Assembly: GCA_016193565.1 (NCBI GenBank)
Contig: JACPRY010000024.1
Coordinates: forward strand, 1-40,943
DNA: 40,943 nt
Origin: Armatimonadota bacterium
GTDB taxonomy: Bacteria > Sysuimicrobiota > Sysuimicrobiia > Sysuimicrobiales > Kaftiobacteriaceae
Direction of reading: 5' to 3'
The notes beneath the pieces were generated by a model. That model saw nothing but the letters and a program-made list of their open reading frames with translations, had not been told where the DNA came from and did not search any database. Shown here one piece after another: positions 36,994 through 40,811 of this stretch. Positions within the stretch are counted from its first letter, which is position 1. Each line of letters begins with the position of its first letter. Position numbers and translations under genes: made by a program.

Positions 36994-37162
36994 GCACGCC
37001 GCTGAGCTCCACACCCTACAAGCGGGCGTGCAAGAATCGTACCCTCCCCTATGTAACCCCGGCCGGTGAGGCAAAGAGGGCTGAGGGATCCCCACGACGG
37101 TGGAGATCTGCGCGGGCCCCAACATGTCCCGCCATTTGGGAAATTTCGGGAGGTGCAGATGA
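36990..37162 (+). pseudogene. Short disrupted gene between the DHDPS-like and hydroxyacid dehydrogenase genes
   Basis: An ATG at 36990 follows a good ribosome site (GGGAGG) and overlaps the previous stop (ATGA). It reads MSTPLSSTPYKRACKNRTLP through about AGEAKRAEG. Near 37085 a shift of one base (a missing G in a G run) leads into GIPTTVEICAGPNMSRHLGN and a stop at 37160-37162, overlapping the next ATG by 4 bp in the normal operon manner. The joined product would be only about 57 residues and matches no family I know. It is either the stump of a longer gene or a small protein with a sequencing error. Confidence 0.4.
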
Positions 37163-37541
37163 CTAAGCTGTCACGCGCAGTGGCATCTCCACGCGTCGTC
37201 AGCATCGAGGATTTCCGATCCTTGGCCGGTCGCAGGTTGCCGAAGGCGGTTTTCGACGACTTGGACGGCGGTGCAGAAGGCGAGGTCACACTCCGAGAGA
37301 ACTGCCGTGCATTTCATGACGTCACCTTCCGACCGCGTCATGCAGTAGCGGTGCCTCACTGCGATTTGCGGACGCGCGTCTTGGGCTTCGACCTTTCCTC
37401 CGCTCGGGCAGTCGGGGCGGCGGGCACTGCATACATTCTCTCCACCATCTCTGGGCACCGGCTGGAGGACGTGAAGGCAGCTTCCTCAGGGCACGTGTTC
37501 TACCAACTCTATCTGATGGGTGGCCGTGAGGCCGCCGAGCC
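37159..37541 (+). pseudogene. Truncated, internally deleted FMN-dependent alpha-hydroxy-acid dehydrogenase
   Basis: Starts at an ATG with GGGAGG upstream. VVSIEDFRSLAGRRLPKAVF, DDLDGGAEGEVTLRENCRAF and VTFRPRHAVAVP are the standard N-terminus of lactate/glycolate/mandelate dehydrogenases (LldD-like). After VLGFDLS the sequence jumps in frame (about 37400, residue 80) to ARAVGAAGTAYILSTISG, skipping about 23 residues that normally hold the LLAP..G...HP.GE FMN-proximal segment. The match goes on through HVFYQLYLMGGREAAE and stops at about 37541, where a tRNA-like 3' end and repeat copy 3 begin. About two thirds of the enzyme, with its catalytic His and Arg, is gone. Confidence 0.8.
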
Positions 37542-37544
37542 TCA

Positions 37545-37597
37545 TGGGGGTCGCGGCGAGCGACCCCGCGGCGGGTTCAATCCCTCGCCCGGCACCA
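37545..37597 (+). other. tRNA-Leu-like 3' half at the break point of the dehydrogenase gene
   Basis: An 8-bp hairpin GGGGTCGC/GCGACCCC, like a long variable arm, is followed by a T-arm-like GCGGGTTCAATCC and an acceptor-like GCCCGGC, discriminator A and CCA. tRNA-Leu genes end similarly (CCCGGCACCA after a long variable arm). The T-loop is imperfect and no 5' half is found, so this is a remnant or mimic, not a working tRNA. It joins repeat copy 3 directly. Confidence 0.45.
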
Positions 37598-37754
37598 GGA
37601 ATTTCGGAGTGAGAAGAGACCGGCCCGCGCCGGTCTCTTCCGCTTGTCCCGTCGAGCCACGTTAGTCCGCCTGATAGAAGTAGCGAGTTTTCGGCCAAAT
37701 CGGTGCCAGGCACCGTTTCACGGCCAAATTGGTACCTGGCACCAACTTCCTGCC
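37587..37754. repeat. Dispersed repeat, copy 3 (short form, 168 bp)
   Basis: Matches the right part of copies 1 and 2 with only a few changes and a 2-nt deletion. The 11-bp hairpin is at 37614-37639; the two GGTGCC/GGCACC palindromes follow, and the copy ends at CCTGCC. The left 120 bp found in copies 1 and 2 are absent and are replaced by the tRNA-Leu-like end. Confidence 0.88.
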
Positions 37755-38540: not shown

Positions 38541-38569
38541 TTGACAACCTGGCCGACCTCTGCTAAAGT
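38541..38569 (+). promoter_or_regulatory. Sigma-70-type promoter of the riboswitch leader
   Basis: A perfect -35 box TTGACA (38541-38546), a 17-bp spacer and the -10 box TAAAGT (38564-38569, 4 of 6 consensus bases). Transcription would begin at about 38576, about 20 nt before the first aptamer. It is the best promoter match I noticed in the window. Confidence 0.72.
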
Positions 38570-38589
38570 TCACTGAAATTCCATAGTTC

Positions 38590-38730
38590 GAGGAAGTGCG
38601 CCTAGGGTTCCACGGCTGATCGATTGAGCCGGTCGGTCCAAGCGGCGCAGGCGGTTGATCGCAACCGCTACACCGTCAGGAGAAAAGCCTGAGGGATAGG
38701 TTCCTCCAGGGATCTATCGCTCAGGCTTTT
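38590..38730 (+). promoter_or_regulatory. ykkC-class riboswitch (subtype undetermined; ppGpp-type 2a favoured by context)
   Basis: Conserved blocks of the ykkC motif appear in order: CTAGGGTTCC (38602-38611), CGGTCCAAGCGG (38634-38645), a 7-bp hairpin GCGGTTG/CAACCGC, then ACACCG (38670-38675) and GGAGAAAAGCCTG (38679-38691). ykkC RNAs sense guanidine (subtype 1), ppGpp (2a), PRPP (2b) or ADP-type ligands (2c). Subtype 2a is known near branched-chain amino-acid genes, and here a leucine-type T-box follows, hence the preference; the sequence alone does not settle it. The 3' strand of the aptamer is shared with the terminator at 38683, so ligand binding should prevent termination (ON switch). 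Confidence 0.75.
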
Positions 38731-38736
38731 CTTTAT
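38683..38736 (+). terminator. Intrinsic terminator of the ykkC-type riboswitch
   Basis: Perfect 11-bp stem AAAAGCCTGAG (38683-38693) / CTCAGGCTTTT (38720-38730), extended inward by GATAG/CTATC, followed by a T-rich tail (CTTTATC). The left arm is part of the conserved aptamer core (AAAAGCC), which gives the mutually exclusive folding needed for a switch. Confidence 0.78.
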
Positions 38737-38749
38737 CTCCAGAGCATTT

Positions 38750-38985
38750 GCGAGGAAGGGAAGTAGTAGGCGGGGACAGGCTCACAAGAGAGCCGGACGT
38801 GGTGAAATCCGGCAGCCGTCGCCTCCGCTGAACTCATCCCGGAGCTGCCGCGACGAGCCAGAGCCAGTCGCGGCCGGACACCGCCGATATAGGTGTGAGT
38901 GCCAACCCGTCACGCATGCGGGTTGGAACTAAGGTGGTACCGCGGGAGCATCCGCCCTTAGGATGTCTCCCGCATCTGTTTTCTT
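38750..38985 (+). promoter_or_regulatory. T-box leader with CUC (leucine) specifier
   Basis: The T-box sequence AACTAAGGTGGTACCGCG is at 38927-38944 and is followed by a terminator. Stem I can be read: GGGA (38758-38761), AGTAGTA, GCGG (38770-38773) on the 5' side pair with CCGC (38825-38828) and TCCC (38837-38840), leaving the specifier loop TGAACTCA, in which GAA is followed by CTC (38833-38835). AGAGAGCC and GGTGAAATCCGGC fit the AG bulge and distal loop. UGGU in the bulge would pair with ACCA, matching the A discriminator of tRNA-Leu. Uncharged tRNA-Leu should stabilise the antiterminator and switch on the downstream gene. Confidence 0.9.
38942..38985 (+). terminator. Intrinsic terminator of the T-box leader
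   Basis: GCGGGAG-CATCC (38942-38953) pairs with GGATG-T-CTCCCGC (38961-38973) with one bulged T and a 7-nt loop, followed by ATCTGTTTTCTT. The left arm overlaps the T-box antiterminator strand (ACCGCGGG), the classical alternative-fold arrangement. Confidence 0.88.
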
Positions 38986-39029
38986 GCCCGGACCGCGGAT
39001 CGATCACGGCGGGCAGGCAGGGGGCGAAC

Positions 39030-40811
39030 ATGGCAACGGTGTCCCAGGTGGCGGCAGTCCCGCGCGGCGCAGGGCTGGAGGAGGTCAGCGGCAACCGGAT
39101 CCTGATTGACACCCTGCGCCGGTGGGGCATCACGTTCTTCGCCGGTGTCAACGGCGGAGGCGTGATCCACGTTGCCAAACAGATGGAGCCGTTTACGGAT
39201 CTGGCGCAGGCCGCAGACGGCGTGACACGCATGCTCACGATGAGCGAGTATGCGGCGGGGTTTGTTCCGCTGGGATACTATTTCGCGTCCGGCAGGATCG
39301 CCGGGTGCGTGACCACCACCGGAGCCGCGACGAAGCTCGGGGGCTGCGGCCTTACCGACGCGAAGCTCCACAACGTTCCCGCCGTCTACCTGATCGCGCT
39401 GAACTCCACGCTGTCGATCGGCCAGGCTCCCCTCCAGGACGTGTCGGCGTACGGCATGAACACCGTGCCCCAACTTCAGGCCGAACTGGGCGACGGCTGC
39501 ATCGTCATCGACAACATGCAGCGGCTGGACACGCAGCTGCGGCGCGCCCAGGAGGTCTTGCAGGAGTCCCGCCCGGTCGCCATCGCCTTCCATCCGGACA
39601 TTCTCTCCAAGCCGGGGGAGGCGGACGTCCCCTGGGTGGAGCGGCCGCGTCGATTCTCGCGTGATGATCTCAAGGAGTTCTTCCGCAGTTTCCCCGCCCG
39701 CTCAGCCGGCCGCAGGGTGATCCTGTACGTCGGAAGCGAGGCGGCCCGGTATGCCGGGATGGAGCGGCTGACGACGCATCTCGCCGAGGTGCTGCGCGCG
39801 CCCACGGTCTGGTCGGTCAACGGCGCCAGCGCTGTCTCCCGCACGAACCGCTACGGCTATGGCTACATCTCCTTCGGCGGGAACGACAGGGCGATGGAGT
39901 TGTGGCGCAGCATCACGCCTGAGGACATCGTGATCGCGCTGGGATTTGATGCGGGCGAATACTCGCTCAATCTGAGCAAGATTCCGGCCGGCGTCGTCTG
40001 GCACATCACCGACCTGCCCGCTGCCTACGGGCACAAGCACGGAGAGTTCAAGCACCGGGTTGCGGGCGAGTACCACCTCGTGCGCGGCGATCTCGGACTG
40101 ATCGTGGAAGAGATCCTGGCCCGTTTCGGGCGTGAGGGATTTCCGAAGCGGCCGGATGCCGATCTTCCCGGCTCGCTCAACACGCGAACGATTTCCAGAG
40201 ATGTGAAGCAAGGGTGCGTGGATTTCATCGCCTTCTATGAGATGCTGGACCGCCTGTGGCGGCCGCACAGCATCGGCTTCGATGATGTGTGCATCGCCTA
40301 CAAAGACCGCCAGTATGTCACACAGCGGCCGCATCCATCCATCCGCTTCTTCACGACGCACGACGGCTCGGCGATGGGCGGCGCGTTCGGTCTCGGCGTC
40401 GGCGCCAAGATAGCCGATCCGAGCCTGCACACCTTTGTCTTCACTGGGGACGGGTGCTGGCGGCTCTTTGGCGGGGCATTGGCTGATGCCGCTGCGCTGG
40501 ATCTCCGCGTGTTCATCATCAACAACGGGACGTATGCCATCGTGGACAAGGGTCTGGAGGTCGTCATCCCAGAGGTGGACAAGCGGCGGTATCACAGCCG
40601 GCTGCCCGGCATCGATTTTGTCGCGGCGGCCAAAGCGCACGGCTGGGACGGCTACGCCGTCAAGCCCGATTTGAGCAATCTGCGGGAGATCATCGAAGCC
40701 TGTTACGCCCCGCGGGGACGCTCGATCCTGGTCGATGTGCCGGTCGACGGCGATCAGATCGTCGGGCTGAACCCGAGACTGCTCAATCTGACAATGAAGA
40801 CGTATCTGTAG
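39030..40811 (+). CDS. Thiamine-diphosphate-dependent enzyme, acetolactate-synthase-like
   Basis: 593 residues from the ATG at 39030 (GGGGG site upstream); the open frame extends 5' into the T-box, which is not coding. The N-terminal domain has RILIDTLRRWGITFFAGVNG and the ThDP-activating Glu73 in LTMSEYAAGFVPLGYYF. The middle domain lies at about 215-370. The C-terminal ThDP/Mg motif is GDGCWRLFGGALADAAALDL...NN (473-499). The three-domain plan is that of acetolactate synthase, sulfopyruvate decarboxylase and IolD, but the glycine loops differ enough that I cannot name the reaction. Control by a leucine T-box suggests a role linked to branched-chain amino acids or keto acids. No small regulatory subunit follows within the window. 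Confidence 0.8.
   Translation: MATVSQVAAVPRGAGLEEVSGNRILIDTLRRWGITFFAGVNGGGVIHVAKQMEPFTDLAQAADGVTRMLTMSEYAAGFVPLGYYFASGRIAGCVTTTGAATKLGGCGLTDAKLHNVPAVYLIALNSTLSIGQAPLQDVSAYGMNTVPQLQAELGDGCIVIDNMQRLDTQLRRAQEVLQESRPVAIAFHPDILSKPGEADVPWVERPRRFSRDDLKEFFRSFPARSAGRRVILYVGSEAARYAGMERLTTHLAEVLRAPTVWSVNGASAVSRTNRYGYGYISFGGNDRAMELWRSITPEDIVIALGFDAGEYSLNLSKIPAGVVWHITDLPAAYGHKHGEFKHRVAGEYHLVRGDLGLIVEEILARFGREGFPKRPDADLPGSLNTRTISRDVKQGCVDFIAFYEMLDRLWRPHSIGFDDVCIAYKDRQYVTQRPHPSIRFFTTHDGSAMGGAFGLGVGAKIADPSLHTFVFTGDGCWRLFGGALADAAALDLRVFIINNGTYAIVDKGLEVVIPEVDKRRYHSRLPGIDFVAAAKAHGWDGYAVKPDLSNLREIIEACYAPRGRSILVDVPVDGDQIVGLNPRLLNLTMKTYL

Follow-up and report, generated by a model that had tools for sequence, protein, structure and literature searches.

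Near the end of the window, the whole 40,943-nt contig of an Armatimonadota bacterium, two regulatory RNA elements stand in series upstream of a single enzyme gene. The question raised by this locus is which signals the leader reads and which genes are placed under its control. From the sequence, we consider it highly probable that the leader combines a ppGpp riboswitch (ykkC subtype 2a) with a leucine T-box, that each element has a separate terminator, and that the leader precedes an ilv-leu operon whose first gene encodes a divergent ThDP enzyme.

Two RNA elements behind one promoter

Upstream of position 39030, the forward strand contains a promoter, a ykkC aptamer, terminator 1, a T-box and terminator 2, one after the other. 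The promoter is a σ70-type site (TTGACA-17-TAAAGT, 38541..38569, + strand), which was found once compared with 0.1 times in shuffled sequences. The TTGACA hexamer, a 17-18 nt spacer and TAnnnT are retained upstream of 18 of 18 tandem leaders of the window's order. The promoter scan of the leader region returned this single promoter-like site and none between the two elements; an internal promoter between the ykkC aptamer and the T-box, which would offer a bypass, was therefore rejected. The fold of the whole leader region has a z of −6.15. A chance origin of the tandem was rejected by the E-values of its elements and by its conservation across 18 genomes.

The ykkC-family aptamer (38590..38706, + strand) was identified by a match to RF00442 at 38591-38697 (57.9 bits, model 1-107, E = 4.6e-10 in 271 nt searched), which contains P1-P3 and the CUAGGGUUCC core. 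This is the single match in the whole genome (genome-wide E = 7e-10). Although the match is significant, its score lies below the Rfam gathering cut-off of 63 for this Guanidine-I model, as is expected when a non-guanidine subtype is scored by a guanidine-I model. When the aptamer is folded by itself, residues 38590-38595 pair with 38701-38706 to form a P0 helix (GAGGAA/UUCCUC), an element missing from guanidine-I aptamers (PMC6031431).

Terminator 1 (38681..38732, + strand) has a predicted fold of −37.8 kcal/mol and is followed by a U-rich stretch. Its 5' arm (38681-38706) consists of the 3' strands of the aptamer helices P3 and P0; the aptamer and terminator 1 are therefore predicted to be mutually exclusive, and ligand binding should consequently favour read-through.

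The second element is a full-length T-box leader (38744..38962, + strand), extending from stem I to the antiterminator. It matches RF00230 over model positions 1-219 with 110.8 bits, above the cut-off of 93 (E = 8e-24), and contains the T-box sequence and a specifier loop. The codon in the specifier position is CUC (Leu; 38833..38835, + strand) in the context GAA-CUC-AUC, and it is unchanged in 18 of 18 tandem leaders of the order (that of G012 was read by eye). The register was fixed by six control T-boxes of the same genome, whose specifiers read AUC before IleRS, ACC before ThrRS, UUC before PheS, UGG before DAHP synthase, AUG before MetRS and GUC before ValRS, the downstream genes being named by eye from sequence; a codon other than CUC was rejected on this basis. 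The antiterminator bulge UGGU (38935..38938, + strand) is complementary to the tRNA 3' end A73-C-C-A, and the four tRNA-Leu genes found in the genome end in ACCA, so that A73 fits the bulge. The natural reader of CUC is tRNA-Leu(GAG), which is absent among the tRNA matches of this 87% complete MAG, where four other Leu isoacceptors are present. In several T-box leaders, we also observed palindromic mini-repeats (GTGAATAGTGAATCGTGAATGG... or GTTGGAGAGTTGGAAAGTTGG...), namely in L002, L003, L004 and L005 of the same genome and in G004 and G006. The repeats occupy about the same spot in the T-box leaders of this genome, indicating that such repeats are either tolerated in T-boxes or accumulate there.

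Terminator 2 of the T-box (38942..38973, + strand; −23.2 kcal/mol) is kept in the tandem relatives, and its U tract is weak and displaced, with a U4 only about 5 nt past the stem. A simple terminator scan picked neither terminator 1 nor terminator 2. The arrangement foreseen in the original prediction, with a ykkC element followed by a T-box with a CUC specifier and with two terminators in series, thus agrees with the covariance-model matches, the T-box alignment and the folds.

Predicted ligand and gate logic

The subtype of a ykkC aptamer can be read from two positions. A at position 49 marks guanidine-I and a pyrimidine marks subtype 2, whereas at position 96 G marks the PRPP type (>97%) and A, C, U or an absent residue marks the ppGpp type (PMC6031431). 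In the window's aptamer (+ strand), position 49 is C 38643, C75-A76-C77 corresponds to 38671-38673, and position 96, counted from C75-A76-C77, is A 38692. The comparison covered 44 aptamers of the window's order, together with 40 of the phylum to which G094 belongs, taken as Bacillota by gene content. C49 and A96 occur together in 44 of the 44 (42 read by script and two by eye), and G96 is present in 33 of 33 script-parsed Bacillota aptamers that precede purine genes (PRPP-type). The guanidine-I subtype was rejected because position 49 is not A; the PRPP subtype 2b was rejected because position 96 is not G and no purine biosynthesis context is found among the 44.

The genes downstream of the order's 44 aptamers are gltB in 24 cases (no T-box), BCAA operons in 18 (with a T-box) and a leuA/cimA-like gene in two; purine, guanidine and NUDIX genes follow none of the 44. 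The three contexts observed are those on which the ppGpp (2a) assignment was based (PMC5912903). In sequence, the aptamer has the pyrimidine at 49, the non-G residue at 96, C75 and the P0 helix of subtype 2a, and in context it belongs with BCAA or glutamate synthase genes. Because residues 49 and 96 and the gene contexts match those of the published ppGpp types, ppGpp is most likely the ligand, in line with the subtype that the original prediction had put forward conditionally.

The same aptamer class stands alone before glutamate synthase, without a T-box, at 24 loci of the order (G001:C125:17695-17800 and 23 more). At G003:C10:3030 and G005:C1:400565, ppGpp-type aptamers lie before a leuA/cimA-like synthase gene, and a T-box is apparently lacking. 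In the phylum of G094, two ykkC aptamers (L136 and L162) have C at position 96 and lie before an ABC-transporter permease; they are perhaps ppGpp types.

In the proposed mechanism, low ppGpp would let the aptamer's 3' strand, with its parts of P3 and P0, fold into terminator 1, and bound ppGpp would hold P0 and P3 in place so that RNA polymerase passes this terminator. Uncharged tRNA-Leu would then pair with CUC and UGGU and stabilise the antiterminator, which removes terminator 2. The leader has the anatomy of an AND gate, namely two predicted ON switches with separate terminators and a single promoter; for this reason, full expression should need both ppGpp and uncharged tRNA-Leu. Ligand binding, switching and the logic itself are predictions, and with this qualification the AND gate of the original prediction holds.

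Target operon and its first enzyme

The original prediction had described the target as one enzyme gene and as not an obvious leucine gene. A single gene is correct for the contig, which ends 132 nt past the enzyme gene and before ilvC, but not for the operon, whose continuation we inferred from a relative of the same genus (G001; JAHZOA010000014, filed as Armatimonadetes). There, the same leader precedes a contiguous series of TPP enzyme, ilvC, leuA, leuC, leuD and leuB genes; further along, ilvD is present and gltB is preceded by another aptamer of the ppGpp type. Most other genomes of the order have the tandem leader before ilvB, and in G036 it precedes a ThDP enzyme followed by ilvB, ilvN, ilvC, leuA and leuC. 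Because of these contexts in G001 and G036, the predicted target of the leader is the branched-chain amino acid (ilv-leu) operon, contrary to the second part of that description. Elsewhere in the window, the best match of an ORF at 37066-37665 spans only residues 1-57 of a 350-residue FMN-dependent dehydrogenase profile, and the ORF is probably a broken gene or a frameshift.

The first gene of the operon (39030..40811, + strand) encodes a ThDP (TPP)-dependent enzyme of 593 aa in the slot of ilvB-ilvN, and its domains, context and homologues make it a candidate non-canonical acetohydroxyacid synthase (AHAS). A profile search found three ThDP-enzyme domains. The protein is 22% identical to ilvB of the window's own order and scores 37.8 bits with the AHAS family model TIGR00118 against a cut-off of 538; because of this score, we do not file it as an AHAS, and it is at most a candidate functional replacement. 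It retains E73, the catalytic Glu, and the GDG...NN motif, but other residues replace the RFDDR Arg and the MVRQW Trp. The closest solved folds to a structure model of moderate confidence (pLDDT 72.5) are HKA synthase and acetolactate synthases.

In G000 and G001, we found no ilvB above the TIGR00118 cut-off and no ilvN; as the G001 operon is contiguous, the absence of ilvBN from it is direct. Both ilvB and ilvN are present in G003, G005, G008 and G036. A TPP protein of G001 that scores 104 bits (C167) is unlikely to be the missing AHAS because it best matches PRK08327, the model of a generic ThDP protein, and because G008 bears a similar match (96 bits) alongside a true ilvB.

Homologues of the enzyme occur in similar positions elsewhere. 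In a Nitrospinae genome, the homologue adjoins ilvC and ilvD and is the sole match to the AHAS model, and in Chloroflexi MAGs without an above-cut-off AHAS the homologues adjoin ilvC, leuA or ilvD. Together with the window gene (39030-40811), the loci at which this family occupies the AHAS slot near ilvC, leuA or ilvD, with canonical AHAS over the cut-off lacking, are L010, L013, L015, L018, L019 and L051. Literature searches on BbmA/CsmA and on non-orthologous AHAS returned nothing usable.

Our best guess for the ThDP enzyme, which we hold tentatively, is a non-canonical AHAS. On the wider reading, also tentative, the gate drives the BCAA operon of a genus that has lost ilvB-ilvN, whose job a divergent ThDP carboligase family may do; that family may likewise serve the AHAS-less Nitrospinae and Chloroflexi. 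If true, a universal biosynthetic enzyme that is also a herbicide target would exist in a non-orthologous form that has gone unrecognised and that works without the usual regulatory subunit. A regulatory RNA and an operon slot would then have pointed to the function of an enzyme family, here as a candidate AHAS replacement.

Alternative readings and known systems

The aptamer might sense another ykkC ligand (PRPP, guanidine or a nucleoside diphosphate), and the gate would then join that signal to uncharged tRNA-Leu. The sole matching Rfam family does bear the name Guanidine-I, and T-box and "guanidine" tandems before BCAA operons have been read as guanidine sensing (PMC12452182). We nevertheless regard this as very improbable, since the window's aptamer has C49 and A96 with C75 kept, since the order's aptamers lack purine, guanidine and NUDIX contexts, and since G96A alone was enough to make a PRPP aptamer recognise ppGpp instead (PMC6031431). 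It is even harder to credit that the enzyme under the control of the tandem has no link to leucine. The low identity of the ThDP enzyme to canonical AHAS and its score far under the AHAS cut-off would suit such a reading, as would its cyanobacterial homologues, which coexist with a normal AHAS and are located elsewhere than the ilv cluster; the operon contexts in G001 and G036 and the Nitrospinae and Chloroflexi homologues that adjoin ilvC, ilvD or leuA argue against it.

A weightier alternative, though still an unlikely one, accepts both elements and questions the gate: one terminator may leak or be bypassed, so that one input dominates in practice. The displaced U tract of terminator 2 is consistent with leakage. 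In addition, uncharged tRNA-Leu itself raises ppGpp as part of the stringent response, which correlates the two inputs in vivo; the main effect of the gate may then be to make one response sharper. Against this, both terminators and the one upstream promoter are common to 18 of 18 tandem leaders, and no internal promoter-like site was found in the scan of the leader. A ppGpp riboswitch and a leucine T-box acting as an AND gate before the BCAA operon is the reading that we prefer.

Such gates are less uncommon than the original prediction supposed. Tandems of ppGpp and T box-Leu elements have been published as AND gates (PMC9481103, PMC5912903), with 31 cases (Sherlock et al. 2018, tabulated in PMC9481103), 15 of them ppGpp-first and 16 T box-first. 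The combination is thus already described, and the window's leader adds another case; it extends a known RNA AND gate, which would join a global starvation alarm to a specific leucine shortage, to an uncultured lineage in which it is kept in 18 genomes. Like the published tandems, it combines two classes of ON switches with separate expression platforms, BCAA genes and predicted AND logic, and its ppGpp-first order is that of the 15. Apparent differences are that it is kept through one uncultured order, the closest named member of which carries the label Armatimonadetes, and that one genus has a ThDP enzyme gene in first position rather than ilvB-ilvN. By the diagnostic residues applied here, the T-box and "guanidine" tandems found before BCAA operons, for which guanidine was discussed (PMC12452182), could well carry ppGpp-type aptamers.

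At the level of the parts, the aptamer resembles ppGpp riboswitch subtype 2a in its P0, its residues at 49, 75 and 96, its gltB and BCAA contexts and a terminator overlapping P3 and P0; position 96 is fixed as A in this order, compared with A, C, U or an absent residue in the literature. The T-box shows no essential difference from leucine T-boxes of RF00230, with a full-length match, CUC, the UGGU bulge and a terminator/antiterminator pair. The enzyme shares with the AHAS large subunit (TIGR00118) the ThDP domains, the catalytic Glu, GDG...NN and the slot before ilvC, and it differs in its 22% identity, in a score of about 38 bits versus 538, in the replaced RFDDR Arg and MVRQW Trp and in having no ilvN. 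The lead on the enzyme side may be a more original result than the RNA gate.
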